From Ignatzschineria rhizosphaerae (lineage in GTDB: Bacteria; Pseudomonadota; Gammaproteobacteria; Cardiobacteriales; Wohlfahrtiimonadaceae): DNA of 64,000 bases. Shown in pieces: positions 7,613 through 42,251 of this stretch (the stretch's first letter is position 1; each line of letters begins with the position of its first letter). The notes beneath the pieces are model-generated. The model was given only the letters and a program-made list of their open reading frames with translations. It made no database searches and was not told the origin of the DNA. The translations under genes were made by a program, and so were the position numbers. Where the stretch lies: positions 2,802,010-2,866,009 of the forward strand of contig NZ_CP093379.1 of assembly GCF_022655595.1 (NCBI RefSeq), given 5' to 3'.

Positions 7613-8086
7613 TTATGACTCCAAACTAGTTTTATCTGCAAGAGCTTTGGTAATTTCGTCTCTTACGATGATTCTTTCAGTTTTACCGATTCCTAATAAC
7701 CTGCGCTCGGGGTATCTCACTTTTAAACCGAGTTTGTTAACTGTTGCTTCTCCCCCTTCCTGGTGGGTTTCTAATATGTGAATATTTTTACCCCGAAAAC
7801 CGACCATTGCTTCTTCTGCACTATTTTCAATAAACATTAAGCGCTTGGCTTTTCTACTAAGCTTTTTAAACATCAGCCCTTTTGGTGCATTTTTGTTCTT
7901 CTGCGGCCTTCTTGGGGCAAACTTGTTGAAGTCTGGATCAACATTCTTTTTAATCTGGCCAGCTCGGTTTCCACGAATTCTCATCGCAATAACCTTTGCC
8001 ATTTTTCTTCTGGCACTAGGTTTTACATTTCGCATAAGAGCAGAGAGTTCATCATTTAACTCTTGATCATGGACAGTGAATTGCAT
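7613..8086 (-). CDS. Tail completion protein S (phage virion morphogenesis)
   Basis: This 157-residue protein belongs to the virion morphogenesis (gpS) family needed for tail completion. It is very basic in the first 100 residues (SARRKMAKVIAMRIRGNRAG, and the segment APRRPQKNKNAPKGLMFK). The C-terminal MVGFRGKNIHILETHQEGGE followed by RYPERRLLGIG is the conserved end of the family. The start overlaps the gpR gene by 20 bases. Confidence 0.9.
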   Translation of the reverse strand: MQFTVHDQELNDELSALMRNVKPSARRKMAKVIAMRIRGNRAGQIKKNVDPDFNKFAPRRPQKNKNAPKGLMFKKLSRKAKRLMFIENSAEEAMVGFRGKNIHILETHQEGGEATVNKLGLKVRYPERRLLGIGKTERIIVRDEITKALADKTSLES

Positions 8087-8423
8087 CTATCATTCCTTCA
8101 TCATCTTTCATGATGTAGCGGTTTCTGACTTTGAGGCGTACTTGCATAAAAGCATCATTTTCTTTGATGACTTCAACATCAAAATTCATACCTTTTTTAA
8201 GTTCATCCTCTGTTAAGCCACCATTGTTCTCTTCGTACCAAACACGAATCGCACCTAATACAGAAGGGTAGGGCTTGATCATGTTTGTTAGATTAATGAC
8301 AACTAATTCTTTGAGATAAAGAGAAAAATATTCCTGTTCAACGCTACCTTCATCTATCCAGATCTCGACAGATGCTGGGTCTTTTACATATTTCTCAACT
8401 AGCTTTTTAAGTCCATTAATCAT
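8067..8423 (-). CDS. Tail completion protein R (gpR-like)
   Basis: This 118-residue protein is assigned to the P2 gpR tail completion family from its position before S, its length, and the pattern MINGLKKLVEKYVKDPASVE followed by WYEENNGGLTEDELKKGM. It overlaps the upstream membrane protein gene in ATGA and the S gene by 20 bases. In P2, R and S together finish the tail so that it can join the head. The similarity is moderate. Confidence 0.8.
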   Translation of the reverse strand: MINGLKKLVEKYVKDPASVEIWIDEGSVEQEYFSLYLKELVVINLTNMIKPYPSVLGAIRVWYEENNGGLTEDELKKGMNFDVEVIKENDAFMQVRLKVRNRYIMKDDEGMIDAIHCP

Positions 8424-10970: not shown

Positions 10971-11660
10971 TTATTTAGGTACTTTTTCAGAATCATTTAA
11001 TTGCTTGTTAACACGCTCTAAGTCATTCTTAGCACCAACCTTTTGATCAAGTTCGAGCGCTTTTTCGTAGTATTCCTTCGCTCGCTGGAAGCTTGCCTTT
11101 GACTTCAGTGCTTCTACTTTTTTACCTAGTTCTCTTAAGAACTTTGCATAAGACTGATCATTCGGTTGTTGTTCTGGCGCTTCAATGCTTGCAATGATTT
11201 GGTAAATCTCTTCAGCTTGGGTTGCTGTAATTGCTTTAAATTGGTCATTACCATCATGTGCTGTCATTGTTTTTGCTGAATCAGTGATAAATGTCTGAAC
11301 CGACACCTTAAATCCTTCAGGCATTGGAATATCAAACTTCACCATGTATCTTGCAATCTGTATAAACTCATCAATGAGCATTGCATCAGCAGACCAGACG
11401 AGCATCATGCGAGTGATGGGATCATTAACTGCAACATCTTGAGCAACAATCCCTGAAACATAATGCATGTATTTTGGTACTTTATATTTCTTCGCAAAGT
11501 GTCTGTGTTGCATTGATTCCATGCTTTTCATTTCTAGAATGTCACCACGGAGATTCCCTTCAAGTTCTGCGAGAATCGGATTTGTGCTCTGCGTTTCAGC
11601 TACTGCAGCACTGGTTTGTGCTGCAATCGCTTCTCGCATTTTTTTAATGCGATGGGGCAT
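10971..11660 (-). CDS. Terminase small subunit / endonuclease M (gpM-like)
   Basis: This 229-residue protein is the small terminase subunit of the P2 family, which recognises and nicks cos with the large subunit P. Conserved pieces are AHDGNDQFKAITATQAEEIY and the central VWSADAMLIDEFIQIARYMV. The C-terminal lysine-rich part with RAKEYYEKALELDQ resembles a TPR-like helix pair. It overlaps the capsid gene stop by one base. Confidence 0.9.
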   Translation of the reverse strand: MPHRIKKMREAIAAQTSAAVAETQSTNPILAELEGNLRGDILEMKSMESMQHRHFAKKYKVPKYMHYVSGIVAQDVAVNDPITRMMLVWSADAMLIDEFIQIARYMVKFDIPMPEGFKVSVQTFITDSAKTMTAHDGNDQFKAITATQAEEIYQIIASIEAPEQQPNDQSYAKFLRELGKKVEALKSKASFQRAKEYYEKALELDQKVGAKNDLERVNKQLNDSEKVPK

Positions 11661-13788: not shown

Positions 13789-15501
13789 ATGGCTCAAATA
13801 ACTCTCCCCCCTTTAACTATTCCAGAAGAAGATCAGGCAAGGATTCTTTACTTTGCGGGCTGGACTTTAACCGATATTGCAACAAGGTTGGAAAGACCTG
13901 TGAGCACGGTTTCAGCGTGGAAAACTAATCGAAAATGGGATAGTGCAACGACATTTCAACGCTTACAAAATGGTGTTGAAACACGTTATTTGATGCTCAT
14001 TTATAAAGAGAATAAGAGCAATGCTGACTATAAAGAGTTAGATCAGCTTAAAAGGCATTTACAGGATCTCTTCTTTCCTAAAGATGAAGATGCCGGCGGT
14101 GGTAAGAAGAAAAAGAAAAGAACTGCTAAAAATATTTCGCCAGAAGAGTTTGCGGAAATTATTAATGAGGCTTGGGAAGGGGCAGGATTCAAGTATCAGA
14201 AAGATTTTTTAAAAGAATCTGCAAAGCACAAAATCTCAATGCTGTTGAAAGGCCGTCAAACAGGCCTTACTTGGTCATTGGCGATAGGGCGCTGTTTAGT
14301 ACGTGCAGTGAACTTAAAGCATGATCAGATTTATATCTCAGCGTCACAGAAGCAAGCTTTCCAAGCTCGTGATTATATTAAGCGATTCGTGAAAGAACAC
14401 ACTGGTATTGAATTATCGGGTGTTGAAGATATTGAATTGCCTAATGGTGCAAAGATTTATTTCTTAGCGACAAACTTTGCGACGGCACAGGGATATTCTG
14501 GGGATGTAACAGTTGATGAGTACGCATGGATGCTCAACTTTGATTTGCTCACTGAAGTAGTGAAAGCATGTGCAACGCTAAAGCAATACACCATTGTGAT
14601 GAGCTCCACACCAAGTATGGCATCGCATCCATCTCATAATGCCTGGAAAGGGATTACAGAAAGTAATAAAGCTGGTGTTAAATTTACGAAGAAACAGACA
14701 CAAAAAGGGATTCTCTGTGATGATCATACTTATCGTAAAACTATCACGGTTGAAGATGCCGTTGCCGGTGGTAATGAGCTTATTGATATTGATCAGCTTA
14801 AACAGTTATTCCCTGATAACTATCATTTCTTGTATATGGCTGAGTGGCTTAAAAAGAGTAATTCACTCTTTGATGCTGCAACAATCATGCGAAACATGGT
14901 GCCGGCATTTAGTGAGTGGTTCGATTATAACGAGCACTTAAAGAGGCCGTATGAAGATCGTCCTGTCATTCTTGGATATGATCCAGCACTTAAAAAAGAT
15001 GCGAGTGCCGTTGTGGTGATTGCGTTACCAACACCTGAATACCCATTCTATCGAGTACTCGAAAAGTACAATTTCTTTGGCAACAAATTTGAAGAGCAAG
15101 CAAAAGAGATAGAGAAGCTGACAGAGCGTTTTAATGTTGTACATATCGGTATCGATACAACTGCAATTGGTGCTGCAGTCTATCCATTAGTGAAAGCATT
15201 TTTCCATAACACGACAGGGAAGCAGGGAACATCTCAGCTTAAATATTTATTGGTAACTCAAATGCAAGGGCTATTTAGACAAAACAGAGTGAAATTCCCG
15301 ATTGATTGGACTGATCTTTTTGAGTGCTTTATGGCGATATCGCTCGCAACAACAAGAGCTGATTCAGTCGTTATTGAAACATCAAGGTCACAGGCAAATG
15401 CGCATGGCGACTATGGTTGGTCAACGATGTATGGAATTGGATTTTATGAAGATATTACAGGTGAAACTCACCAACAAGAAGGACGTGGAGGCGTTTTATA
15501 A
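13789..15501 (+). CDS. Terminase large subunit, ATPase/nuclease (gpP-like)
   Basis: This 570-residue motor protein packages DNA from cos. Residues 17-50 form a helix-turn-helix (FAGWTLTDIATRLERPVSTV) typical of P2 P. The ATPase has a deviant Walker A (LKGRQTGLTWSLA, no canonical lysine, as in P2 relatives) and Walker B (VTVDEYAWM). The nuclease domain starts at about residue 395 (ILGYDPALKKDASAVVVI) with the second acidic site at HIGIDTTAIGAAV. Length is close to P2 P (590). Its stop overlaps the portal start in TAATG, so the two are coupled. Confidence 0.95.
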   Translation: MAQITLPPLTIPEEDQARILYFAGWTLTDIATRLERPVSTVSAWKTNRKWDSATTFQRLQNGVETRYLMLIYKENKSNADYKELDQLKRHLQDLFFPKDEDAGGGKKKKKRTAKNISPEEFAEIINEAWEGAGFKYQKDFLKESAKHKISMLLKGRQTGLTWSLAIGRCLVRAVNLKHDQIYISASQKQAFQARDYIKRFVKEHTGIELSGVEDIELPNGAKIYFLATNFATAQGYSGDVTVDEYAWMLNFDLLTEVVKACATLKQYTIVMSSTPSMASHPSHNAWKGITESNKAGVKFTKKQTQKGILCDDHTYRKTITVEDAVAGGNELIDIDQLKQLFPDNYHFLYMAEWLKKSNSLFDAATIMRNMVPAFSEWFDYNEHLKRPYEDRPVILGYDPALKKDASAVVVIALPTPEYPFYRVLEKYNFFGNKFEEQAKEIEKLTERFNVVHIGIDTTAIGAAVYPLVKAFFHNTTGKQGTSQLKYLLVTQMQGLFRQNRVKFPIDWTDLFECFMAISLATTRADSVVIETSRSQANAHGDYGWSTMYGIGFYEDITGETHQQEGRGGVL

Positions 15502-16493
15502 TGACAAATAAACGTAAAGAAGATGAAGGCCAAATCATTACATTTGGTATTAATGAAGAAGTCACAGAGCAAAATATCTATGAGATGTTAGGTTTTCAAT
15601 GGGATGGTGGTCATGAGCTTTATTACAGACAACCATACAATTATTGGAAGCTTCATCTTGCAAGTATGGGTGCTGCGCTTCATGAAACGAGCTTAAACTT
15701 TAAGACTCGCTTTGCTACCTCTTATTTTGAATCTAATTCATATTTAAGAAAGTCTGAGTTTAAGAAGTTCTTCTATGATTATATGATCTTTGGCCATGCT
15801 TATTTAGCAATTAACAAAGCTCGATTAGGAAACGTCTTATCGCTTTCTCATCTACCTTCCTTTTATATGCGAGTAGGTAAGCAAGGTGGGGCATATTTGG
15901 TGAATCCTGCAGAGCTTAATGAACCGATGTATTTTCCTGATGTACTGATTCAAAAGAACTATGATCCATCGCAAACGATCTACGGTAAGCCTGATTACCT
16001 CTCAGCTTTGCCATCTGTAAGCTTGAATCAAAATGCAACGGCCTTTCGCATTCGCTATTATAAAAATGGCTCACATGCAGGGTTTATTTTGTCAGTTAAT
16101 GGCAAGATTAGTGATGATCTTTTTGATGATATTAAAACAACATTAAGCCAATCAAAAGGTGATGGAAACTTTAAAAATCTGCTGATTAATATGCCTGAAG
16201 GTAATAAAGAGAGTGTGCAGCTGATACCAATTGCAGATATTGGTGCAAAAGATGAATTTAATCTCATCAAAAGAGCGACAGATCGGGATATTAACGCAAT
16301 TCACCGTGTACCGCCTATATTCATGGGTATCGCACCAGAGAATGCTGGTGGGTTTGGGAAGCCAGAAGAGTATTTGGAGACGTTCTACAACAATGAAATG
16401 CTACCGATCTTTAGTGAATTAGAAGATTTGAACGATGATTTAGGCGTGAAAGCTTTCGTATTTAGAGAATATTCTAAAAAAGAAGATATATAG
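15501..16493 (+). CDS. Portal protein Q (gpQ-like)
   Basis: This 330-residue protein forms the dodecameric DNA entry vertex. Family motifs are seen throughout: HETSLNFKTRFATSYFESN, FKKFFYDYMIFGHAYLAINK, YGKPDYLSALPSVSLNQNAT, RIRYYKNGSHAGFIL and PPIFMGIAPENAGGFGKPEE. Length and order are as in P2 Q (344). It is translationally coupled to terminase P. It is the last gene before the gene-free region leading to the tRNA. Confidence 0.95.
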   Translation: MTNKRKEDEGQIITFGINEEVTEQNIYEMLGFQWDGGHELYYRQPYNYWKLHLASMGAALHETSLNFKTRFATSYFESNSYLRKSEFKKFFYDYMIFGHAYLAINKARLGNVLSLSHLPSFYMRVGKQGGAYLVNPAELNEPMYFPDVLIQKNYDPSQTIYGKPDYLSALPSVSLNQNATAFRIRYYKNGSHAGFILSVNGKISDDLFDDIKTTLSQSKGDGNFKNLLINMPEGNKESVQLIPIADIGAKDEFNLIKRATDRDINAIHRVPPIFMGIAPENAGGFGKPEEYLETFYNNEMLPIFSELEDLNDDLGVKAFVFREYSKKEDI

Positions 16494-16510
16494 GGTGGTC
16501 GTCGCAAGAG

Positions 16511-16773
16511 CGTGATTTATTAGTGAGTCTTTCAAAAGCATTGATACTATCGGCTTAAATCGGTAACACTATATGCGTGATTCGATGTGATTAAAGTTAC
16601 ACTTTAATGATAAGTTATTGATGTGTAAGTGTTTATTAGTATTCAATAATCATCATTTAGACACGTTACCTAATCACATCAAATCACAAATAAATCACAA
16701 ATATAGAATCTCTTAAACACGTTGCAATCAGTATCATTACACATGGTTTATTTTTTAGGTAACAGAAATCACG
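16511..16773. repeat. Array of inverted NGTGATT / AATCACN heptamers
   Basis: Rightward copies of (C/T)GTGATT lie at 16511, 16576 and 16586. Leftward copies AATCA C(A/G) lie at 16672, 16682, 16693 and 16767. The set is nearly symmetric around 16638-16642, and neighbouring sites are spaced 10 to 11 bp, one helical turn. It includes a perfect 10-bp inverted repeat (GATGTGATTA at 16584-16593 with TAATCACATC at 16671-16680) and a tandem 11-bp repeat AAATCACAAAT (16681-16702). GGTAAC also recurs at 16562 and 16758, and inverted at 16665. This looks like a protein-binding array; which protein is unknown. Confidence 0.6.
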
Positions 16774-17013
16774 CCTTTCCGACACTGCCCCACCGCTTTT
16801 AATATATAGAGATATATACCTATATCTGTTCATTAATTTATCAATCAATCTTACTTTTAATAAAATGAATCAACTTCTAAAAGTGCCTAAAAAGACCTAA
16901 AAAAGCAAAATGTAATACTTGTAATAGCTCGTAAAGGATAAAAGCAAGGAACAGCCAGTATCGGCGCTTCTAGCGATATGATTGGAGCTTGGAAAAACAG
17001 GGTACAAACCATC

Positions 17014-17029
17014 GGCGAGGGCGGCGAGG
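17014..17029. other. cos-like GC-rich repeat (GGCGAGG twice)
   Basis: GGCGAGG occurs at 17014-17020 and again at 17023-17029 in a short GC-rich island inside AT-rich DNA, about 520 bp past the end of the portal gene. The P2 cohesive end begins GGCGAGGCGGGG (recalled, not searched), so this is a candidate cohesive end site. The resemblance is short. Confidence 0.35.
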
Positions 17030-17064
17030 TGACGGCGCAAGTAGACTGCTATTGGATCTATTCT

Positions 17065-17147
17065 CAACTGTGGTGATAATGCCCATAGTTGAATCCAGTT
17101 GTGGGGGTAATGACCATAACTGCTTTTAGTTATTGCGATTATCGCAA
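17065..17147. repeat. Three consecutive inverted repeats
   Basis: Two 27-bp imperfect palindromes of the same design lie 31 bp apart: CAACTGTGG...CCATAGTTG (17065-17091) and CAGTTGTGG...CCATAACTG (17096-17122), sharing TAATG in the loop. A near-perfect 15-bp palindrome TTGCGATTATCGCAA follows at 17133-17147. They could be operators, terminase/integrase binding sites or RNA hairpins; the G-T mismatches in the first two would still pair as RNA. Confidence 0.55.
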
Positions 17148-17167
17148 CAACTGTTTTATCGAGGCAA

Positions 17168-17190
17168 TAAAAAAGCTCACCGTAGTGAGC
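17168..17190 (-). terminator. Rho-independent terminator (minus strand)
   Basis: On the minus strand GCTCAC-TACG-GTGAGC is followed by a run of six to seven Ts. It would stop transcription running leftward from the tRNA into the prophage end. Confidence 0.65.
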
Positions 17191-17310
17191 CGTGGAGATT
17201 CTTTTAAAAGTGCATAATAATTGTGCTATTTTTGGGTGAAGTACAGTTATCAGCGGTTATAAAAGGGGAAGCGTTTTCGCCATTTTTTTCGCCAAGAGCT
17301 TTTATAGATA

Positions 17311-17340
17311 GCAAAAAGCCCGCTAAATAGCGGGCTTTAA
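17311..17340 (-). terminator. Terminator of tRNA-Leu
   Basis: GCCCGC-TATTTA-GCGGGC followed by TTTTTG on the minus strand, 10 bases after the tRNA 3' end. It is a stable six-GC stem and also has a short T run on the plus strand. Confidence 0.8.
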
Positions 17341-17350
17341 GACTTTGTAA

Positions 17351-17440
17351 TGGTGCCTAGGGCCGGAATCGAACCGGCACGACCGTAAAAGGGTCGGCAG
17401 ATTTTAAGTCTGCTGCGTCTACCAATTTCGCCACCCAGGC
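17351..17440 (-). tRNA. tRNA-Leu (anticodon TAA)
   Basis: This is a 90-nt class II tRNA with encoded CCA. The acceptor GCCTGGG pairs with CCTAGGC (one G-T), then ACCA. The D-arm region contains TTGGTAGAC, the anticodon loop CTTAAAA gives TAA, a long variable arm (GACCC..GGGTC-type) follows, and the T-loop is GGTTCGATTCC. The 3' end faces the prophage, and tRNA 3' ends are common phage attachment sites, so it probably serves as attB, rebuilt by the phage. Confidence 0.95.
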
Positions 17441-18570: not shown

Positions 18571-19470
18571 TTATAAAGACAAGGACTGAGTTCGATATTC
18601 TATTGGACTTAGTCCTTTTAATTTAAGCTTAATTCGTTTGTGATTGTAATAATCAATATATTTGTGTAGCTCTGTTTGAAGATGATCTACTGATTTAAAC
18701 CGTTGTGTGTAAAAAAATTCTGATTTTAGTATCCCAAAAAAGTTCTCTATGACAGCATTATCATAGCAATTACCTTTACGGGACATACTCTGTTTAATAT
18801 TGTTTTTCTTTAGGTTTTGTTGATACTGAGCCATTTGATATTGCCAACCTTGATCTGAATGAAGGATCAGCTTTTCTCGACCTCTCTTACTACTTTGTAA
18901 GTATGTTAAGGCTTTCTCCAACATCCGTTCGACTAATTCATATTTTGGTCTTTTTGTAATTTTATAACTAATAACTTCTTGATTATAGAGATCTAGAATC
19001 GGAGATAAATAGAGTTTCTCCCCATTGACTTTGAACTCTGTAACATCTGTTACTCATTTTTGGTTAGGCTTGCTTGCTGTAAATTGACGTTGTAAAAGAT
19101 TCTTAGCAACTCTTCCAATCTGGCCTTTATAAGAACGATATTTCTTTGGACGAATCAAAGATTTTAGGTTCAACTGTTTCATTAGCCTCTGGACTTTCTT
19201 ATGGTTAATGATGAACTCTCGCCTTAGTATTGCTGTAATTCTGCGATAGCCATAACGCCCCTTGTTCTCATGATAAATTGACAATATTTTCGCTTTAAGA
19301 TCACTTTCCGGATCAGCAGAGAAGAGTGACTTTCGATGATAATAACTACTTCTCGCAAGATGGGTCACTTTAAGTAGGAGTGTTAAAGGATGCTTCTCTT
19401 TTAACTCCTCGATTGTTTCAGTTTGAGCCTTCGCTGTTCCTCCCTCTCTTCCAACTCTTGATACTTTTTT
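18571..19470 (-). pseudogene. IS3-family transposase orfB (nonsense mutation)
   Basis: OrfB holds the DDE integrase core (LHSDQGWQYQ and ENFFGILKSEF remain). Compared with copy 2, the TGG of the KWVTDVTEF block is TGA at 19054-19056, exactly beside the first catalytic Asp, so the protein stops early. Copy 1 also lacks one of three tandem Tyr codons near the start and has Lys for Glu in SYEITKRP. The reading frame normally fuses to OrfA by -1 slippage at 19464-19470. Confidence 0.9.
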
Positions 19471-30955: not shown

Positions 30956-31429
30956 GTGCATGTCCATATAGTGATTCAAGAAGAATTGTTTGATCTAAAA
31001 AAAGAGAGTGATGCGCTGATAAAAGCTTCAGGCGATGCTGGGGCATTAGTGTTATTTCAAGGAATGGTGCGAGAGTTTGATCAAGCAGTGCAGCTTGAGA
31101 AGATGATGCTTGAGCATTTCCCAGGGGTTACAGAGAAAGAGATCACTCGTATTATTTTGAAAGCAAAGCAGAAGTGGGATATTGCTGGTTGTAGAGTGAT
31201 TCATCGGGTTGGAGCGTTCTATGCGGATGATCCTATTGTCCTTTTAATGGTGACGGCGAAGCATCGTCTACATGCTTTTTTAGCGGCAGAATATATTATG
31301 GATTATCTCAAAACAGAGGCGCCTTTTTGGAAAAAAGAGTTCTTACAAGATGGGGAAAACTATTGGGTTGCGGCAAAAAAATCAGATCAAGAGATCTTAG
31401 CAAGATGGCAGGAACCTGATAGTGAGTAA
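30956..31429 (+). CDS. moaE: Molybdopterin synthase catalytic subunit MoaE
   Basis: This 157-residue large subunit converts cyclic pyranopterin to molybdopterin with MoaD. It shows GALVLFQGMVREFD near residue 40, IHRVGAFYADDPIVLLMVTAK in the middle and the catalytic lysine region PFWKKEF. The start is GTG 30956 with AGGAGG just upstream inside moaD. It overlaps mobA by 8 bases. Confidence 0.95.
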   Translation: MHVHIVIQEELFDLKKESDALIKASGDAGALVLFQGMVREFDQAVQLEKMMLEHFPGVTEKEITRIILKAKQKWDIAGCRVIHRVGAFYADDPIVLLMVTAKHRLHAFLAAEYIMDYLKTEAPFWKKEFLQDGENYWVAAKKSDQEILARWQEPDSE

Positions 31430-32012
31430 GGTTGTGGGGATTATTCTTGCCGGCGGCGAAGGTCGGCGTATGGGATATCACAATAAAGGATTACTGCCTT
31501 TAGCCGGTAAACCGATGATTGCACATGTGATTGAAAAAATTGCGCCTCAAGTAGATAAACTCTATATCTCGGCAAATGATGATCTTGAACAATATGGTAT
31601 CTTTAACTTACCCATTATTCCTGATGAAATAGCATGGCAAGGTAATGGTCCGCTTGCCGGGATTGCCTCTGTCTTAAAACATCTATCAGATGATGATATC
31701 GTTCAGGTTGTCAGTTGTGATGGACCGATGATTCCTGATAATTTAGTGGCATTATTAGGTGTTGAGAGGATGGCGGAGAAAGTTGTCTATCCAGAGACAC
31801 AAGATAGAGGGCATTATCTCTATTTACAAGGCAAAGTGGCAGATTTAAGGGCAATTGAATCACTACTTGAAGCAAAAGATTTAAGAATTCGAGCATTATT
31901 AGCGAAGTTGCAAGCAAAAGCGGTATTATTTGCAGATGAAGATGCATTTTTAAATTGTAATTATCCGGAAGATATTCAGCGGTTAGAGGAGATCATTGAT
32001 GAAGAATTATGA
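31422..32012 (+). CDS. mobA: Molybdenum cofactor guanylyltransferase MobA
   Basis: This 196-residue GTP:Mo-cofactor nucleotidyltransferase attaches GMP to give the bis-MGD form used by DMSO reductase-type enzymes. The N-terminal ILAGGEGRRMGYHNKGLLPL is the nucleotide-binding signature; VSCDGPMIP holds the Mg-binding Asp. It starts at GTG inside moaE and overlaps moeA by 14 bases. Confidence 0.95.
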   Translation: MSKVVGIILAGGEGRRMGYHNKGLLPLAGKPMIAHVIEKIAPQVDKLYISANDDLEQYGIFNLPIIPDEIAWQGNGPLAGIASVLKHLSDDDIVQVVSCDGPMIPDNLVALLGVERMAEKVVYPETQDRGHYLYLQGKVADLRAIESLLEAKDLRIRALLAKLQAKAVLFADEDAFLNCNYPEDIQRLEEIIDEEL

Positions 32013-33204
32013 TGTGGCTTTGAAAGAGCTCTTAGCAGGAATGACGTTAGAGAGAGCCGTTACGACTGTGACACTTCCGGAAGCCTATGATCGTCAATTG
32101 GCGATGGATTGCATGGCAAATTATGACACGCCACTATTTGATAATAGTGCAATGGATGGTTATGCCCTTAATGATCCATCTGGTCAGTTGCTGGAGTTTA
32201 CCATTGTTGAGAGAATTATGGCAGGGGATGCTGTTGATTTTTCTTTAAAGGTTGGTGAAGCTGCGCGTATTTTTACAGGGGCAAAGACGCCAAAGAATAC
32301 TACATCTGTAGTAATGCAAGAAAATACCCAAGTTAATGGAGAGAAATTAACATTAACAGAGGTTAATGCAGTGGGTTTAAATGTCCGTTATAAAGCAGAA
32401 GAGATTAAAAAAGGCGCTATGCTTTTTTCTAAAGGGCATGTGTTAGATCCTGCGGCAATTGCGCTCTTAGCTTCACAAGGGATCTGGAAGATTCAGGTTT
32501 ATACAGATTTGAAAATTACGGTTTTCTCTACCGGCAATGAATTAAAGGAGCCTTGGGATAGTATTGGGGAGAGTCAGATTTATGATGCCAATCGTTATCA
32601 ATTACTGGCTTGGGTATCTAAGTTAGCAAAGGCGTGCGATGGAGGGATTTTAAAAGATGATTATAAAACCGTCTTATCGGCGCTAAAAAGTGAAGCACAA
32701 GAGAAGGATTTAATCATTTTAAGTGGCGGCGCATCTGTTGGTGAGGCAGATTATATTGCAAGGGCCGTCATAGAGCTAGGTGAGCTTCACATGTGGAAGC
32801 TTGCGATTAAGCCAGGAAAGCCTTTTGGCTGGGGGAAAATCGGAAATTGTCATATTATTATGTTGCCAGGGAATCCTGTATCTGCTTATGCGACATTTTA
32901 TCTATTGGCTTATCCGGCGATTAAACAGCTGATGGGCTTATCACCAAAACTGCCACAATTAAATGCCATTATCAATTTTGGAGGTGATCGTATTCAACCT
33001 CGCCGAGAGTTTTTACGTGGCAACTATTATCAAGATGAAGATGGTGTTTATCATGTAGATAGCACAGGTTTACAAGGGTCAGCAATGTTAAGTGGATTAA
33101 GCTATGCTAATTGCTTGATTGAAATGAAAGAGAATCAAATGACGGAAAAAGGGAGCGTGGTACGAATCTATCCGCTTCCTAAAGAGGTCGCGAAAGCGAG
33201 ATAA
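31999..33204 (+). CDS. moeA: Molybdopterin molybdenumtransferase MoeA
   Basis: This 401-residue enzyme inserts molybdate into adenylated molybdopterin. Motifs seen are FDNSAMDGYAL, RIFTGAKTPKN, the GGASVGEADY segment of the MPT-binding domain and MLPGNPVSAYATF. I took ATG 31999, with AGGAG 7 bases upstream, over TTG 31996. It follows the late cofactor steps MoaD, MoaE and MobA in one operon and is followed 5 bp later by rsmG. Confidence 0.95.
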   Translation: MKNYDVALKELLAGMTLERAVTTVTLPEAYDRQLAMDCMANYDTPLFDNSAMDGYALNDPSGQLLEFTIVERIMAGDAVDFSLKVGEAARIFTGAKTPKNTTSVVMQENTQVNGEKLTLTEVNAVGLNVRYKAEEIKKGAMLFSKGHVLDPAAIALLASQGIWKIQVYTDLKITVFSTGNELKEPWDSIGESQIYDANRYQLLAWVSKLAKACDGGILKDDYKTVLSALKSEAQEKDLIILSGGASVGEADYIARAVIELGELHMWKLAIKPGKPFGWGKIGNCHIIMLPGNPVSAYATFYLLAYPAIKQLMGLSPKLPQLNAIINFGGDRIQPRREFLRGNYYQDEDGVYHVDSTGLQGSAMLSGLSYANCLIEMKENQMTEKGSVVRIYPLPKEVAKAR

Positions 33205-33209
33205 TATTA

Positions 33210-33842
33210 ATGAGTATTCAAAAAGAAGATGTAAGAGTGGCGATTGATCAGCTCTTTTTTGAGGTGGATGATATTGCTTGTGACAAGCTCACTAAATACC
33301 TACAGGGGATGCTGCTTTGGAATAAGGCTTATAATTTAACGGCTATTACTGAGCCTAAAGAGATGCTAGTAAAGCATCTTCTTGATTCCTTGGTGTTAGC
33401 GCCAGAGCTTGAAAAGAGAATTCCAAATGGTCATTTTATTGATGTGGGCACTGGCGCTGGTTTACCAGGTGCTTTATTATCAATAGTGATGCCAAGCGCA
33501 CGTTTTACGCTGCTAGATAGTGCGATCAAGCGAACGCGCTTTATTACGCAGATGAAGCTAGAAATCGGTTTGCCCAATGTTGAGATTGTCACTTCTAGAG
33601 TGCAAGATCATCAGCCAGAAAAGGGCTATGATGCGGTGTTATCTAGAGCTTTTGCGAGCGGTGAAGATATGGTGAATTGGTCAGAGCATTTAGTACATGA
33701 TCAAGGTGTCATGGCGGCGATGAAAGGAAAATTCATTGAAGAAGAGTGGGAGAGTGTCTCACAATTTCCTAATCGAGAAGTTATTGAGTTAGAAGTGCCG
33801 GGGCTTTTTGAAGAGCGGCATTTGATCTTCTTATCGAAGTAA
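33210..33842 (+). CDS. rsmG: 16S rRNA m7G527 methyltransferase RsmG
   Basis: This 210-residue SAM-dependent methyltransferase (GidB) contains WNKAYNLTAI, HLLDSLVLAP and the SAM loop IDVGTGAGLPGALLSI. The parA-parB-atp order downstream is the usual chromosomal context; its common upstream partner mnmG is instead about 20 kb away at 53433-55346. Confidence 0.96.
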   Translation: MSIQKEDVRVAIDQLFFEVDDIACDKLTKYLQGMLLWNKAYNLTAITEPKEMLVKHLLDSLVLAPELEKRIPNGHFIDVGTGAGLPGALLSIVMPSARFTLLDSAIKRTRFITQMKLEIGLPNVEIVTSRVQDHQPEKGYDAVLSRAFASGEDMVNWSEHLVHDQGVMAAMKGKFIEEEWESVSQFPNREVIELEVPGLFEERHLIFLSK

Positions 33843-33890
33843 TATTTTTGATATAATTTTATTCTCAATTTAGAAAGGTAGGAACCATCA

Positions 33891-34667
33891 TTGGCAACGA
33901 TCATTGCAATTGCAAATCAGAAAGGCGGCGTGGGAAAGACGACGACCGCAGTAAATCTGGCCTCTAGTTTAACTGAGAGCAAAATGCGCCCTAATGTCTT
34001 ATTAATCGATCTCGATCCGCAAGGAAATGCGACAACGGGAATCGGTGTCGATAAGCATACGCTTGAATATGGCGTTGTAGATCTTCTGCTAGGAGAAGCC
34101 TCTATTGCCGAGGTGATTTTAGATCTCGATAAAGCAGGTTTAAGACTTATTGGTGCAAATGGTGAGCTAACAGGGGCTGAGGTTCTTTTAGCGCAAGAGC
34201 CAAGAGGGATTTTTACTTTGAAAGAAGCATTAGCGCCTATTAGAGGGAATTTTGATTACATTATTTTAGACTGTGCGCCTTCTTTAAATATGTTAACGCT
34301 CAATTCACTTGCTGCTGCCACAGATATTATTATCCCAGTGCAGTGTGAATATTATGCGCTTGAGGGAATATCAGCCTTGATGGATACAATCTCATCGGTT
34401 AAAGAGACGGCAAATCCAGATTTAAATATTATGGGAGTATTGCGAACAATGTATGATGGGCGAAATACATTAGCAGTACAGGTTTCTGAAAACTTGGAAG
34501 CACATTTTGGTGAAAAGATGTTTGAGGCGATGGTACCTAGAAATGTTCGCCTTGCAGAAGCACCGAGTTATGGTGTTCCAATTACAGTATATGATGGTAA
34601 ATCTAAAGGTGCGATCGCCTATATAGAACTAGCGCGTGAAGTGATTGCTCGAAGCAAAAAGAGGTAG
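33891..34667 (+). CDS. parA: Chromosome partitioning ATPase ParA (Soj)
   Basis: This 258-residue P-loop ATPase has the deviant Walker A KGGVGKTTTAVNLA at residues 11-24, the LLIDLDPQGNATTGIG motif and IILDCAPSL. It works with ParB on parS sites in origin segregation. The start is TTG at 33891 with AGGTAGGAA upstream. It is separated from parB by 2 bases. Confidence 0.95.
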   Translation: MATIIAIANQKGGVGKTTTAVNLASSLTESKMRPNVLLIDLDPQGNATTGIGVDKHTLEYGVVDLLLGEASIAEVILDLDKAGLRLIGANGELTGAEVLLAQEPRGIFTLKEALAPIRGNFDYIILDCAPSLNMLTLNSLAAATDIIIPVQCEYYALEGISALMDTISSVKETANPDLNIMGVLRTMYDGRNTLAVQVSENLEAHFGEKMFEAMVPRNVRLAEAPSYGVPITVYDGKSKGAIAYIELAREVIARSKKR

Positions 34668-34669
34668 TT

Positions 34670-35545
34670 GTGAAAAAAAGAGGATTAGGACGTGGCTTAG
34701 AGATGCTACTCAGCCAAACAGGGGCAGAAATTGCGACAGATTCAGTGAAAGCAGATCGTGATGGCGTCAAAGAGGTCTCTATTGAAAAATTAGTGCCGGG
34801 GAAATATCAGCCGCGCCGTTTTTTTGATCAAGATGCTCTAGAGGCTTTAGCGACCTCAATTAAGTCTCAAGGCATTATTCAGCCGATTGTTGTGCGTGAA
34901 GTTGCAGGTGGCAACTTTGAGATTTTAGCAGGTGAGCGCCGCTGGAGAGCTTCGCAATTAGCAGCGCTGAAAACGGTTCCTGTTATTTTTAAAGAGATGA
35001 GCGACCAAGAGGCCTTAGCTGTTGCGTTGATTGAGAATATTCAGCGTGAAAATTTAAATCCTGTTGAAACCGCAATCGCCCTAAAACGTCTGATTGAAGA
35101 ATTTACGCTAACCCATCAAGAGGCAGGCGAAGTGATTGGTAAATCTCGCTCGTCTATTACCAATACTTTAAGATTATTAGAGCTTGATGATGCTGTTCAG
35201 CAGTTACTTGCAGAGCAGAGCCTAGATATGGGACATGCAAGAGCATTGTTAGCGCTTCCTAAAAAGCAGCAGGTGGCTGTTTCCAAGAAAGTGCTCGATG
35301 GTAATTTAACGGTTCGTGAAACAGAGCATTTAGTGAAGACGCTATTAAAAGATAGCGGTAAAGGTAAGCCTGTTCAGAAAGTTGCCAAAAAAGATCCGGA
35401 TGTTTTAAATTTAGAGCGTGATCTTAGTGAATTTTTAGGGGCGAGCACAGAAATAAAAGCAAAAAAAGCAGGAAAGGGTGAAGTCATCATTCGTTATGGC
35501 TCGCTTGAAGAATTAGATGGTATTTTATTGAAAATTAAGCGATAG
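34670..35545 (+). CDS. parB: Chromosome partitioning protein ParB (Spo0J)
   Basis: This 291-residue CTPase/DNA clamp has KRGLGRGLEMLL at the start, the ParB/Srx domain with GERRWRASQLA and ALIENIQRENLNPVE, then the helix-turn-helix (THQEAGEVIGKSRSSITNTL) that reads parS, and a C-terminal dimerisation domain. No parS consensus (TGTTTCACGTGAAACA) is seen in the window. Confidence 0.95.
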   Translation: MKKRGLGRGLEMLLSQTGAEIATDSVKADRDGVKEVSIEKLVPGKYQPRRFFDQDALEALATSIKSQGIIQPIVVREVAGGNFEILAGERRWRASQLAALKTVPVIFKEMSDQEALAVALIENIQRENLNPVETAIALKRLIEEFTLTHQEAGEVIGKSRSSITNTLRLLELDDAVQQLLAEQSLDMGHARALLALPKKQQVAVSKKVLDGNLTVRETEHLVKTLLKDSGKGKPVQKVAKKDPDVLNLERDLSEFLGASTEIKAKKAGKGEVIIRYGSLEELDGILLKIKR

Positions 35546-35578
35546 GCAATAAACACTACAAGGGCACTACGAATAGAA

Positions 35579-35607
35579 TTGACCTTGGTCGTGCGATAGA
35601 CTATAAT
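35579..35607 (+). promoter_or_regulatory. Sigma-70 promoter of the atp operon
   Basis: TTGACC (35579-35584), 17-bp spacer, TATAAT (35602-35607): a near-consensus promoter in the gap between parB and atpI. Transcription would start at about 35614, 24 bases before the atpI ATG. Confidence 0.8.
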
Positions 35608-35637
35608 CCTCGGCATGAATTTAAAGGCGAAGATCGA

Positions 35638-35976
35638 ATGATTCTAAGGATAGTAATTGCGCAACTCATTGTTTTAACGCTGTTGACGTTAGTAACGTGG
35701 GCTCTGTTTGATGGTGTTGCGGCGGTCTCTCTGTTTGCTTCGGGTATCTCAATGTTGATACCGTCTGTTTTTTTAGCAACAAATATGGCTCTTATCCGCT
35801 TTAGTAAGGTTTTTTTTTGGATCGGCGTTTTTTTCAATAAATTTATTATTTTAGCGCTCTTTTTTGTGAGTATTAAAATAATTGGAGAACCGAATTATTT
35901 CGCGTTCTTAGTGGGGATTGTAGTGGTGTCACAAGTCCCTTGGTTATATGTTAATTTCTTCCCTAAGAAAGATTAA
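35638..35976 (+). CDS. atpI: ATP synthase subunit I (AtpI)
   Basis: This 112-residue membrane protein has four predicted helices, the usual first gene of the atp operon and thought to help c-ring assembly. Sequence conservation in this family is low; the assignment rests on position before atpB, size and hydrophobicity. The strong promoter lies just upstream. Confidence 0.85.
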   Translation: MILRIVIAQLIVLTLLTLVTWALFDGVAAVSLFASGISMLIPSVFLATNMALIRFSKVFFWIGVFFNKFIILALFFVSIKIIGEPNYFAFLVGIVVVSQVPWLYVNFFPKKD

Positions 35977-36006
35977 CTGAAGGATGAGATTAGAGTGAAT
36001 TTTTAG

Positions 36007-36849
<843 letters not shown>

Positions 36850-36895
36850 AGAATCAATCGAAAGATTGTGTTTTATAATTATTTGTTAACGTTAG

Positions 36896-37159
<264 letters not shown>

Positions 37160-37219
37160 TCTTGCTTTAAGCGAAGTGCAAGAGATTTATATACAGGCAG
37201 ATAAAGGATAGGTAATAAC

Positions 37220-37690
37220 ATGAATATTAACGCAACCTTGATTAGCCAGTTTGTCGTCTTTTTTATTTTGGTTTTGGTGGTTATGAAGTTTATCTGGCCA
37301 CCTTTAATCAAAGCGATTGAAGAAAGACGTACGAAAATTGCTGAAGGCTTAGCGGCTGCTGAAGAGAGCGTTGCTGCACAGGCGTCGGCTGTAGCTGAGG
37401 TAGATGAGTTAATTAAAACAGCACATCTTGAAGCGGCTAACTTAGTTGGCAAAGCTCAGCAGCAAGCAGATAGCTTAATTGCGAAGTCTAAAGAAGACAG
37501 CAAAGAAGTTGGGCAAAGAGAGATTGATGCGGCGCATGCGAAGATTGAGGCAGAACTTAATCAAGTGAAAGAGAGCTTGAGAAAACAAGTTATTGCTTTA
37601 AGCATTCAAGGCGCAAGCAAAATCATTGAGAAAGAAGTTGATGAGACAACTCATGCTAAAATGTTAGATGAGTTAGCAAAACAACTATAG
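37220..37690 (+). CDS. atpF: ATP synthase Fo subunit b (AtpF)
   Basis: This 156-residue peripheral-stalk subunit has one N-terminal helix ([18 protein letters not shown]) and a long charged helix that dimerises and binds delta. AAAGGATAGG is about 8 bases before the start. Size is as in E. coli (156). Confidence 0.96.
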
Positions 37691-37747
37691 TCGCCTGCTC
37701 TTCTATTGAAGAGCATTTTGATAACTAATAAACGATGTAAAAGTAAT

Positions 37748-38296
37748 ATGTCAGAATTATCAACAGTAGCAAGACCTTACGCGGAAGCCGTGTTCATGAT
37801 TGCCAAAGAAGATTCTCAAAGCGCAGACCGCTGGACAGAATTTCTCTACTCATTAAAAGAATTAATGAGTAATAAGGCAACTTGTGAAGTAATGCGCTTA
37901 CCTGAGTTAGGTGTCGAAAAGAAAAATGCATTCTTAGGTGAGTTATCAGCTAAGGTTTTAAATCGTGATCTCACTGAAGACGAGAATGGTTTCTTAAGAA
38001 CTATTAGTGAAAACAGACGCTATGAAATTTTGCCATCTGTTTATGACGAATTCAGAATGCGTTTATTAGCTGAACGAAACATTCTTGAGGTCGAAATGCA
38101 AAGTGCATATGCCTTAACGGATGGGCAACAAGAGATGTTTGTTAAAGCTCTTCAGAAGCGTTTTAATAAAGAGATCGAATTAACAGTAACCATTTCGCCT
38201 TCCTTATTAGGTGGTGCTATTTTAAAAATAGATGATTTAGTCATTGATGGTTCGATTTTAGGTCGTTTAGACGGCATGATCCGATCAATGAATTAA
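37748..38296 (+). CDS. atpH: ATP synthase F1 subunit delta (AtpH)
   Basis: This 182-residue subunit caps the catalytic hexamer and holds the b stalk. It starts MSELSTVARPYAEAVF, the usual N-terminus; GGAILKIDDLVIDGSILGRL near the end is the family signature. I used ATG 37748 and not the upstream TTG at 37706, which would add an unrelated 14-residue tail. Confidence 0.95.
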   Translation: MSELSTVARPYAEAVFMIAKEDSQSADRWTEFLYSLKELMSNKATCEVMRLPELGVEKKNAFLGELSAKVLNRDLTEDENGFLRTISENRRYEILPSVYDEFRMRLLAERNILEVEMQSAYALTDGQQEMFVKALQKRFNKEIELTVTISPSLLGGAILKIDDLVIDGSILGRLDGMIRSMN

Positions 38297-38327
38297 GTTT
38301 AATGAATATAAAAGGAAGATTTAAAAG

Positions 38328-39878
38328 ATGCAATTAAATCCATCTGAGATCAGTGATCTCATTAAATCCAAGATTGAAGAATTTGAACTCAAACCTGAAG
38401 AAAGAACTGAAGGTACAGTTGTTAGTTTAACTGATGGTATTGCTCGCGTTCACGGAATTGATTCTGTGATGCAAGGTGAAATGGTTGAACTTCCACACGG
38501 TGTACGCGGTCTTGCATTGAACCTTGAAAGAGATTCAGTAGGGGTAGTTCTTCTTGGTGATTACGAAAAAATCACAGAAGGCGACAAAGTAAGATGTACT
38601 GGTCGTATTCTTGAAGCACCAATCGGTCCTGAGTTACTTGGTCGTGTAGTTGACGGTCTTGGTAACCCAATCGATGGTAAAGGTGAGTTAGGAACTAAAC
38701 TTTCAGCACCTATCGAGCAAATCGCACCTGGCGTTATTGATCGTCAATCAGTTGATCAACCGATGCAAACAGGTTATATCGCAATTGACTCAATGGTTCC
38801 AGTAGGACGTGGTCAGCGTGAGCTTATCATCGGTGACCGTCAGACAGGTAAAACTGCAATCGCAATCGATACAATCATTAACCAAAAAGGTAGTGGTATT
38901 AAATGTATCTATGTTGCAATTGGTCAAAAGAACTCAACGATTGCAAATATCGTAGCGAAGCTTGAAGAGCATGGCGCAATGGATCATACGATCGTTGTTG
39001 CAGCAGGTGCATCTGATTCAGCTGCAATGCAGTATTTATCAGCATACACTGGTTGTACAATGGGTGAGTATTTCCGTGACCGTGGTGAAGATGCGCTTAT
39101 CATTTATGATGACTTATCTAAACAAGCTGTTGCATATCGTCAGATTTCACTCCTTCTTCGTCGTCCACCAGGTCGTGAAGCTTATCCTGGAGATGTTTTC
39201 TATCTTCACTCACGTCTTCTTGAGCGTGCTGCACGTGTTAACGCAGATTACGTTGAGAAATTCACAAATGGTGAAGTAAAAGGTAAAACTGGATCATTAA
39301 CAGCACTTCCAATTATTGAAACACAAGGTGGGGACGTTTCTGCGTTCGTACCAACTAACGTTATTTCAATTACTGATGGTCAAATCTTCCTTGAATCAGA
39401 TCTCTTTAACTCTGGTGTACGCCCAGCGATGAACGCAGGTATCTCTGTATCACGTGTTGGTGGTGCGGCACAAACGAAGCTTATTAGTAAGCTTGGTGGT
39501 GGTGTTCGTCTTGCACTTGCACAATATCGTGAACTTGCGGCGTTCTCTCAATTTGCTTCAGACCTTGATGAAGTAACTCGTAGACAGCTTGCTCGCGGTC
39601 AACGTGTTATGGAGTTAATGAAACAAGCACAATATCGTCCATATAACATTGCTGAGATGGCATTAATTCTCTATGCAATCGAGTATGAATATGTTGACGA
39701 TCTACCAATTGAAGAAATTCGTCCATTCGCGCAAGGTTTAATTGTTTCAGCAAATGCGACAGACCAAGAGCTCTTAAAAGACATCAACAGCAAAGGTGCT
39801 TATAACGACGACGTTTTAGCAGCCCTTGATAAAGTTGTAAGTCAATTTAAGAAAGGTGGAAGCTGGAAAGTAGCGTAA
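38328..39878 (+). CDS. atpA: ATP synthase F1 subunit alpha (AtpA)
   Basis: This 516-residue regulatory nucleotide-binding subunit has the P-loop GDRQTGKT and the [17 protein letters not shown] segment of the alpha-subunit. Length and motifs are full. Its codon choice is visibly more biased than in neighbouring genes, which suits high expression. GGAAG lies before the ATG. Confidence 0.98.
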
Positions 39879-39920
39879 GCTACTTTTTAGTTCGTAACAT
39901 AGCAATTAGGTAGGAATTTC

Positions 39921-40817
39921 ATGGCTGTTGGAAAAGAAATACGTAGTAAGATTAAAAGTATTAGTAATACTCAGAAGATTACTAGTGCGATGGAGATGGT
40001 TGCAGCGAGTAAGATGCGTGCTACGCAGCTTCGCCGCAATAAATCTTTACCGTATGCGAAGCAGATTATTAAACTTGCCTCGCATTTAGGTGAAGCAACA
40101 CCTGAAGAATTCAAACATCAATATTTAACTCCACGTGATGTAAAACGTGTAGGAATTATCGTAGTCAGCTCGGATCGTGGTTTAGCAGGTGGTTTAAATA
40201 ACAACTTATTTAAGCTTGTTGCCAACCAAATGAAAGAGTGGAAAAAAAGCGGTATTGATGTTGAGATCGCTACGGTTGGAAATAAAGCAAATGCTTTCTT
40301 CTCCCGTTTTGGTGGAAATCTCGTAGCTACTGTGAATAACTTAGGTGATGCGCCTTCGTCAAAAGATCTGATCGGTATTACAACTGCAATGCTAGATCTT
40401 TTCCAAGAAGGTAAAATTGATGAGCTCCATGTTTTTGCTAACGAGTTTGTGAACACAATGACGCAAAAGCCACGTTCAGTCCAAGTACTCCCAGTCATTC
40501 CAGGAGTACTACAGGATCAGTTAGACTTTGAAAGCCTAACCGATGAATCAAGCTTAGCATGGGATTATGTCTATGATTCTGCGCCTGTAGATTTGATGAA
40601 CATTGTTTTAGATCGTTATATTGAATATGCAATTTATCAAGCAGTTGTTGAAAACGTTGCCTGTGAAATGGCAGCACGTATGATTGCGATGAAGGCTGCA
40701 AGTGATAATGCTGGTGACCTTATTGATGAATTACAACTGGTCTATAACAAAGCTCGTCAGGCAGCAATTACTCAGGAAATTACTGAGATTGTTAGTGGTG
40801 CGGCAGCAATCAATTAA
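39921..40817 (+). CDS. atpG: ATP synthase F1 subunit gamma (AtpG)
   Basis: This 298-residue central rotor shaft has the N-terminal [20 protein letters not shown] and C-terminal [20 protein letters not shown] coiled-coil helices, both diagnostic. It has GGTAGGAATT before the ATG and lies between atpA and atpD. Confidence 0.97.
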
Positions 40818-40859
40818 GACGACGTTAACAAAAATTTGGGTTAATAGAGGTTTAGATAG

Positions 40860-42251
<1,392 letters not shown>

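Follow-up and report, generated by a model that had tools for sequence, protein, structure and literature searches.

The source genome is a single contig of 3.07 Mb, of which the window (the whole stretch of 64,000 nucleotides that was analyzed) covers bases 2,802,010-2,866,009. The repeat array described here is situated at the right end of prophage A, a P2-like element in which Pfam identifies the capsid, portal and both terminase genes (small and large); terminase and portal are recovered by PHROGs as well (Table 1). At its left end the prophage carries a copy of the tRNA-Leu 3′ end (L016, about 14620) followed by the integrase gene, and just to the right of the prophage end, at 18571-19368 of the window, there are rve (integrase-core) and HTH_21 fragments of an IS-type transposase. 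Two further prophages are present in the genome: prophage B, a near copy of A that ends beside the tmRNA gene, and prophage C, whose portal is 50% identical. The homology between A and B stops exactly at a stretch that we take to be cosN-like, judged by eye against the cos of P2. Past it, at 17019-17350, each prophage has its own attachment-site segment, which places att no more than a few hundred bases away from the cos-like site.

The array is only about 0.6 kb from the attachment site, a proximity that would suit integrase or excisionase arm sites, one of the functions proposed in the first-pass annotation, or an early operator. However, A and B are inserted at different genes and their integrases are 67% identical, whereas the array region is shared at 96% identity, and the sites are thus not specific to the integrase of the phage; moreover, no plus-strand ORF of at least 70 aa starts between the array and 17613. 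We consider both functions extremely unlikely.

Table 1. Features at the right end of prophage A and the parts of the repeat array (window positions).
Feature	Position	Strand	Basis
Small terminase gene, encoding the alternative candidate for binding the array	10971..11660	-	PF05944, phrog_74
Portal gene, neighbor lying outside the candidate origin	15501..16493	+	Pfam, PHROGs
Whole element: near-dyad array of iterons ending in inverted repeat arms (16501-16518, 16766-16783)	16501..16783	.	
Outer left iteron GTGATT	16512..16517	+	
Inner left iterons GTGATT (starts 16577 and 16587, 10-bp step)	16577..16592	+	
A+T-rich core (75%), candidate melting region	16592..16671	.	composition
Inner right iterons (16672, 16682 and 16693; 10- and 11-bp steps), including the tandem AAATCACAAAT	16672..16698	-	
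Outer right iteron	16767..16772	-	
Presumed cosN-like sequence	17019..17040	.	by eye, against P2 cos
tRNA-Leu gene, right attachment site of prophage A	17351..17440	-	

Architecture of the Array

Seven copies of GTGATT, three on the plus strand and four on the minus strand, bear out the three rightward and four leftward heptamers of the first-pass annotation, and from their positions the heptamers span exactly 16511-16773. The steps inside the clusters are 10, 10 and 11 bp, as had been claimed; the steps from cluster to cluster (65, 85 and 74 bp) correspond only approximately to a whole number of helical turns. The inverted repeat of 10 bp, GATGTGATTA (16584-16593 and 16671-16680), is perfect, with its arms 77 bp apart, not 78 as first given, and the 11-bp tandem repeat AAATCACAAAT is exact (16681-16702). 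The outer ends of the array form a further inverted repeat, 83% complementary.

Seven copies of any single 6-mer in the 525-bp gap arose in 9 of 1000 dinucleotide shuffles, and the equivalent test with 7-mers and 8-mers in this gap was not significant (86/1000 and 127/1000, respectively). Across 232 kb of the genome, no other 263-bp stretch exceeds four GTGATT, apart from the copy in prophage B, and so the equal density elsewhere that would have argued against a specific site is not seen. When the entire prophage A was scanned for dyads without a motif, the array ranked best with a score of 7, the maximum in ten shuffles being 5. IHF sites as an essential part of the element were rejected, as the exact consensus occurs in only 4 of 21 gaps and is absent from that of prophage A.

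The Primase-Helicase Rep

Rep, as we call it here, is a protein of prophage A that joins a DnaG-type primase to an initiator-type helicase; its gene (genome bases 2,790,702-2,793,320) is located about 9 kb to the left of the window. Prophages B (2,232,671-2,235,337) and C (559,428-562,073) each have one too; the three proteins measure 872-888 aa and are all recovered by the family search, and those of A and C match phrog_1139, annotated as “DNA primase”. P2 is the textbook rolling-circle phage. Despite this, matches to phrog_1139 were found in 17 of 43 portal-sampled viral records, a count for this family alone, as well as in 17 of 22 genomes or records in another search. For gpA (PF05840), 4 of 22 genomes or records matched, namely P2, PHL101, M16-3 and G254, and the source genome (G000) gave no match. 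The portal-sampled loci total 80, of which 43 were searched for phrog_1139 and five more joined the other search on repeat hints. A single-protein portal query against viral contigs and genome contigs gave no matches.

The structure of Rep was approached through an AlphaFold2 model (mean pLDDT 86.4) of a relative, L281 Rep, which is 37% identical to that of prophage A and comes from an element that also carries an array near its portal. Among known structures, the model matches two best: 5dgk, the Cch helicase of SCCmec, with Z 23.6 over 459 residues (rmsd 5.3), and 8tch, the replication initiator of SaPIBov1, with Z 21.2 over 443 residues (rmsd 5.7). Both alignments run to residue 896, the last of the model, and the predicted fold is shared over residues 317-896; for residues 90-324 the match is to primases of the DnaG type (Z 15.2 over 196 residues, rmsd 3.5). 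Residues 831-892 form a strand-helix-helix-strand-strand unit in the model, which we read as winged-helix-like. By analogy, we favor the C-terminal domain as the part of Rep that would read the iterons; another candidate for the DNA-reading part is a block in which G417 diverges to an unusual degree (about 461-520 in G418 numbering). The structure alignment covered 44 of the 46 translated Rep loci, out of 80.

The C-terminal part of Rep (phrog_1139 about 786-892) also occurs alone in separate proteins, at G422:C1:36025-36288, G010:C1:1715190-1715474 and G022:C13:52217-52453, in open frames of 340, 304 and 270 aa, respectively. These are encoded directly after the portal or, in the case of G422, some 430 bp away from the array; by eye they are antirepressor-like, and they could compete with Rep for the iterons.

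Arrays in Related Phages and Prophages

In close relatives, arrays are also found between the portal gene and a cosN-like sequence, with a hexamer that differs each time and usually contains a GTRAY core. The layout is kept while the hexamer changes, and the lack of conservation in relatives that the first-pass annotation named as a possible refutation is thus not what is observed. Most of 25 arrays, measuring 241-332 bp, follow a common plan, in which the core is flanked on each side by an inner cluster and, further out, by an outer pair, with the sites pointing inward; G401, ESSI2 and the phi3 pair show a poorer fit. Inward orientation is seen in 219 of 258 sites, the maximum in 2000 shuffles of orientation among sites being 191. 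For the layout plan and for the array similarities used below, boundaries were drawn by hand once the sequences had been viewed, and motifs other than GTRAY (G407, G410) were assigned their strand afterwards. Judged by eye, the array ends are inverted repeats in several phages, most clearly in Smp131. Arrays built on ACCATAA (G407, 8120-8410), CCTAACA (G410, 37700-38000) and CTGACAG (L264, PfPro, about 813) exist as well, so the iteron core itself varies among related Reps.

The position of the array is variable. It lies beside the portal gene in A and 2F_1, directly 3′ of rep in phi3, and 5 kb from rep, near the record end, in ESSI2; in prophage A it is about 4.6 kb from the rep 3′ end in the inferred circle, and hence does not adjoin rep. 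Judged by eye, arrays occur on either side of the cosN-like sequence, cos itself being inferred from sequence.

Distribution of Arrays With Respect to Rep

A motif-free search for inward-pointing repeats was applied to 35 Rep-bearing records (20 viral records, 12 named phages and prophages A, B and C) and 13 Rep-lacking ones, where a dyad qualified with a score of at least 7 that was also above ten shuffles. Qualifying dyads were found in 15/35 Rep-bearing and 0/13 Rep-lacking records; the Rep-lacking G415 scores 7 but merely equals its own shuffle maximum. Three of the 20 Rep-bearing viral records (G397, G398 and G401) had been preselected on hinted repeats, and the counts were therefore repeated without them. 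With both discovery and preselected records removed the contrast is 12/29 against 0/13 (P 0.008), or 12/29 against 1/13 if G415 is counted (P 0.036), and dropping near-identical Reps as well leaves 10/27 against 0/13 (P 0.016). Any score above the record’s own shuffles was reached by 20/35 Rep-bearing and 2/13 Rep-lacking records (P 0.020), the latter two beating all their shuffles at scores of 5-6. Twenty of the 35 Rep-bearing records miss the dyad threshold; among them, motif counts reveal clusters in Hal4908, 2F_1, G397, G401, G408 and G412, a weaker one in prophage C, and none in the remainder.

For GTRAY, a core motif defined after inspection of the discovery set, at least 12 copies per 300 bp were present in 8/20 Rep-bearing and 0/10 Rep-lacking viral records (P 0.029), the ten being a selection from 26, and in 5/17 against 0/10 without the preselected records (P 0.12). 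Among 80 Rep-centered loci, a strong cluster was seen in only four, mostly within 10 kb and in one case inside an ORF, and an array beside rep as a rule was consequently rejected. Likewise, GTRAY arrays are not a general feature of the P2 family, since enrichment within 600 bp after the portal gene was found in 2 of 65 held-out viral loci and in 2 of 185 control windows (65 of 80 loci were used in this test, one having no stop and 14 having less than 400 bp after it).

Several individual records deserve mention. In L328, a GTRAY cluster at 7629-7930 (13 per 300 bp, CGTTACA seven times) falls within an ORF of 344 aa that is located 2 kb upstream of rep, reminiscent of the lambda origin, which sits inside gene O. 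A Rep relative with no clear array is encoded on plasmid p2 of Azospirillum and in 42.7 kb of a Sphingomonas plasmid, Microcystis phage Mae-JY29 has a weak cluster only, and in ZY1, whose first and last annotated genes run to the record ends, Rep is encoded and no array was found. The Azospirillum plasmid (L265), which is phage-like, has GGATCAC five times at about 36592, at the end of its own repA, possibly representing iterons of the plasmid’s RepA. A circular 47.5-kb P. aeruginosa “plasmid” (L266, NZ_CP077991.1) is a P2-like phage with Rep and array; a second block in it, at 31110-41717, has a P2-family capsid gene of its own together with Ogr, DUF927/Toprim genes and an integrase, and gives it the appearance of a phage containing a satellite.

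Co-variation of the Array With Rep and With the Small Terminase

A terminase site was suggested first, because close relatives hold their arrays, as does prophage A, between the portal gene and the cosN-like sequence. The model for such a cosB-type packaging site is phage lambda, in which gpNu1 binds the R sites; here, the small terminase would bind the phased repeats beside cosN and start packaging. Such a function would be in keeping with the small terminase gene being present in all array phages of the Mantel comparison below, and with phased repeats and bending like those of lambda cosB (excerpts of PMC9611059).

Three named phages of the P. aeruginosa group, phi3, phita81A/2 and PaBSM-2607-JFK (PaBSM), allow the two candidate binders to be separated. 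The small terminases of phita81A/2 and PaBSM are identical over the aligned residues (201 aa in the PaBSM annotation, against 245) and their portals are 95% identical, whereas their Reps are 57% identical and their iterons are unrelated, with CGGAACA nine times in phita81A/2 and CCTTCCA eleven times in PaBSM. Conversely, phita81A/2 and phi3 have Reps that are identical to the nearest percent, terminases 90% identical, and the same iteron. Between phi3 and PaBSM, the late region is 98.9% identical over 19.5 kb, compared with 72.7% over the aligned rep stretch. In all three phages the array starts no more than 100 bp 3′ of rep, and in PaBSM it overlaps small annotated ORFs. In these three phages, the iteron sequence thus goes with Rep and not with the small terminase, and we regard this comparison as the strongest indication from sequence that the array follows Rep. 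The three phages furthermore constitute a ready-made set for specificity swaps.

A similar case is provided by the viral records G417 and G418, with terminases 89% and Reps 68% identical and an array similarity of 0.03. In a partial Mantel test on 21 arrays, to which the 25 had been collapsed, array similarity was associated with Rep (r 0.25, P 0.033) and not with the terminase (r 0.04, P 0.36); given that Rep and terminase similarities are themselves correlated (r 0.78), this test is modest if taken alone. The Mantel test and the three-phage comparison led us to reject the small terminase as the first hypothesis, and the held-out portal set gave it no support. The ten Rep-lacking viral records all encode a small terminase and none has a qualifying dyad; arrays are placed on both sides of the cosN-like sequence or adjoin rep, as described above. 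Binding by the small terminase at cos, which the first-pass annotation had also put forward, is therefore very unlikely.

The three-phage comparison ties the array to the rep module and not to origin activity as such, and iteron arrays often double as control elements. The array could accordingly serve in the control of copy number, incompatibility or repression, its binder being either Rep itself or a small protein that is passed on together with Rep, and the proteins with Rep’s C-terminal domain that three elements encode near the portal or array would be compatible with this. However, the dyad layout about an A+T-rich core, the SaPI-like site 3′ of rep in three phages, and the predicted similarity of the Rep fold to origin-binding initiators speak against a role confined to control. 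The small gene directly upstream of rep, moreover, is 77-85% identical across phi3, phita81A/2 and PaBSM although their iterons differ. We hold this explanation to be improbable.

A Candidate Origin of Replication

We suggest that the array is very probably the replication origin of a P2-like prophage in which a Rep of the phrog_1139 family stands in place of the rolling-circle gpA of P2, a reading derived from sequence comparison and a predicted fold. Rep would contact the short iterons, probably with the winged-helix-like domain at its C-terminus, and as the iterons on either side of the A+T-rich core point inward, two rings of Rep would be loaded in a head-to-head arrangement. The rings may then melt the core and depart in opposite directions, resulting in a bidirectional start, with primers presumably made by Rep’s own DnaG-type domain. 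By analogy, this would be the mechanism proposed for SaPI Rep with the addition of a fused primase. Weighing against the origin reading are the 20 Rep-bearing records below the dyad threshold, the rarity of strong clusters in the Rep-centered loci, the GTRAY counts after the portal gene and without preselected records, the two Rep-lacking records that beat their shuffles, the correlation of Rep with terminase similarity, and the distance between array and rep in prophage A. Another proposal of the first-pass annotation, a replication site at which the DNA is looped or wrapped in a nucleoprotein complex, gains support from an array that appears to track Rep and has the symmetric layout of an initiator site, so that the earlier interpretation as a whole is partly supported.

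Should the array be the origin, these phages would start replication by loading helicase rings at a symmetric site, using an initiator fold that is characterized from islands of staphylococci. Sequence would in that case suffice to predict their origins and perhaps their compatibility groups, phage-plasmids included. We also lean towards the broader view that rep and ori form a mobile cassette, its protein being a DnaG-type primase joined to a SaPI-Rep-like helicase that would recognize a double-dyad iteron array (outer pairs, inner clusters, A+T-rich core and terminal inverted repeats). In some members of the P2 family, the cassette would take the place of rolling-circle replication by gpA; its iteron specificity would change fast, its position would be free, either next to cos or next to rep, and it would represent a class of origin without description in the open-access literature searched.

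Comparison With Known Systems

The alpha protein of satellite P4, with its ori and crr, is likewise a primase-helicase initiator acting with short repeated sites, and differs from Rep in domain content; it is not among the structural matches listed for the L281 Rep model, an absence that excludes nothing. With lambda cosB, prophage A has in common the phased repeats beside a cosN-like sequence, but the repeats described here do not follow the small terminase and, judged by eye, do not seem to keep a fixed place beside cos. Phage P2 belongs to the same family as prophage A and has the same late genes, and its ori is in gene A according to the title of Liu et al. (1993), as cited in PMC5694545. 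Unlike P2, the source genome has no detected gpA, and prophage A is thus not grouped with the gpA rolling-circle systems.

For this phage group, no description of an origin was found in the portions seen of the open-access literature, to which the search was confined. The passages available of the papers on Smp131 (PMC3931495) and RSY1 (PMC5694545) mention a primase-like gene and no phage origin, and the iterons in the accessible part of PMC2647930 belong to a plasmid-like island and not to a P2-like prophage.

The closest parallels are the Rep-ori system of SaPI and the Cch2 helicase of SCCmec with its putative origin; the L281 Rep model predicts for Rep an initiator helicase of the same fold, with a C-terminal domain that would bind DNA. 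In SaPI, iterons are recognized by the helicase, proposed to act as two hexamers (from the part consulted of PMC7581432), and an array just downstream of rep, like the SaPI origin, is seen in phi3, phita81A/2 and PaBSM, though not in prophage A. In contrast to SaPI and Cch, the Rep helicase described here is fused to a zinc ribbon and a DnaG-type Toprim primase, the array is a double dyad of 240-330 bp, and in prophage A and several others it is located at the portal/cos end rather than beside rep. The hosts are Gram-negative and the elements are whole P2-like phages.
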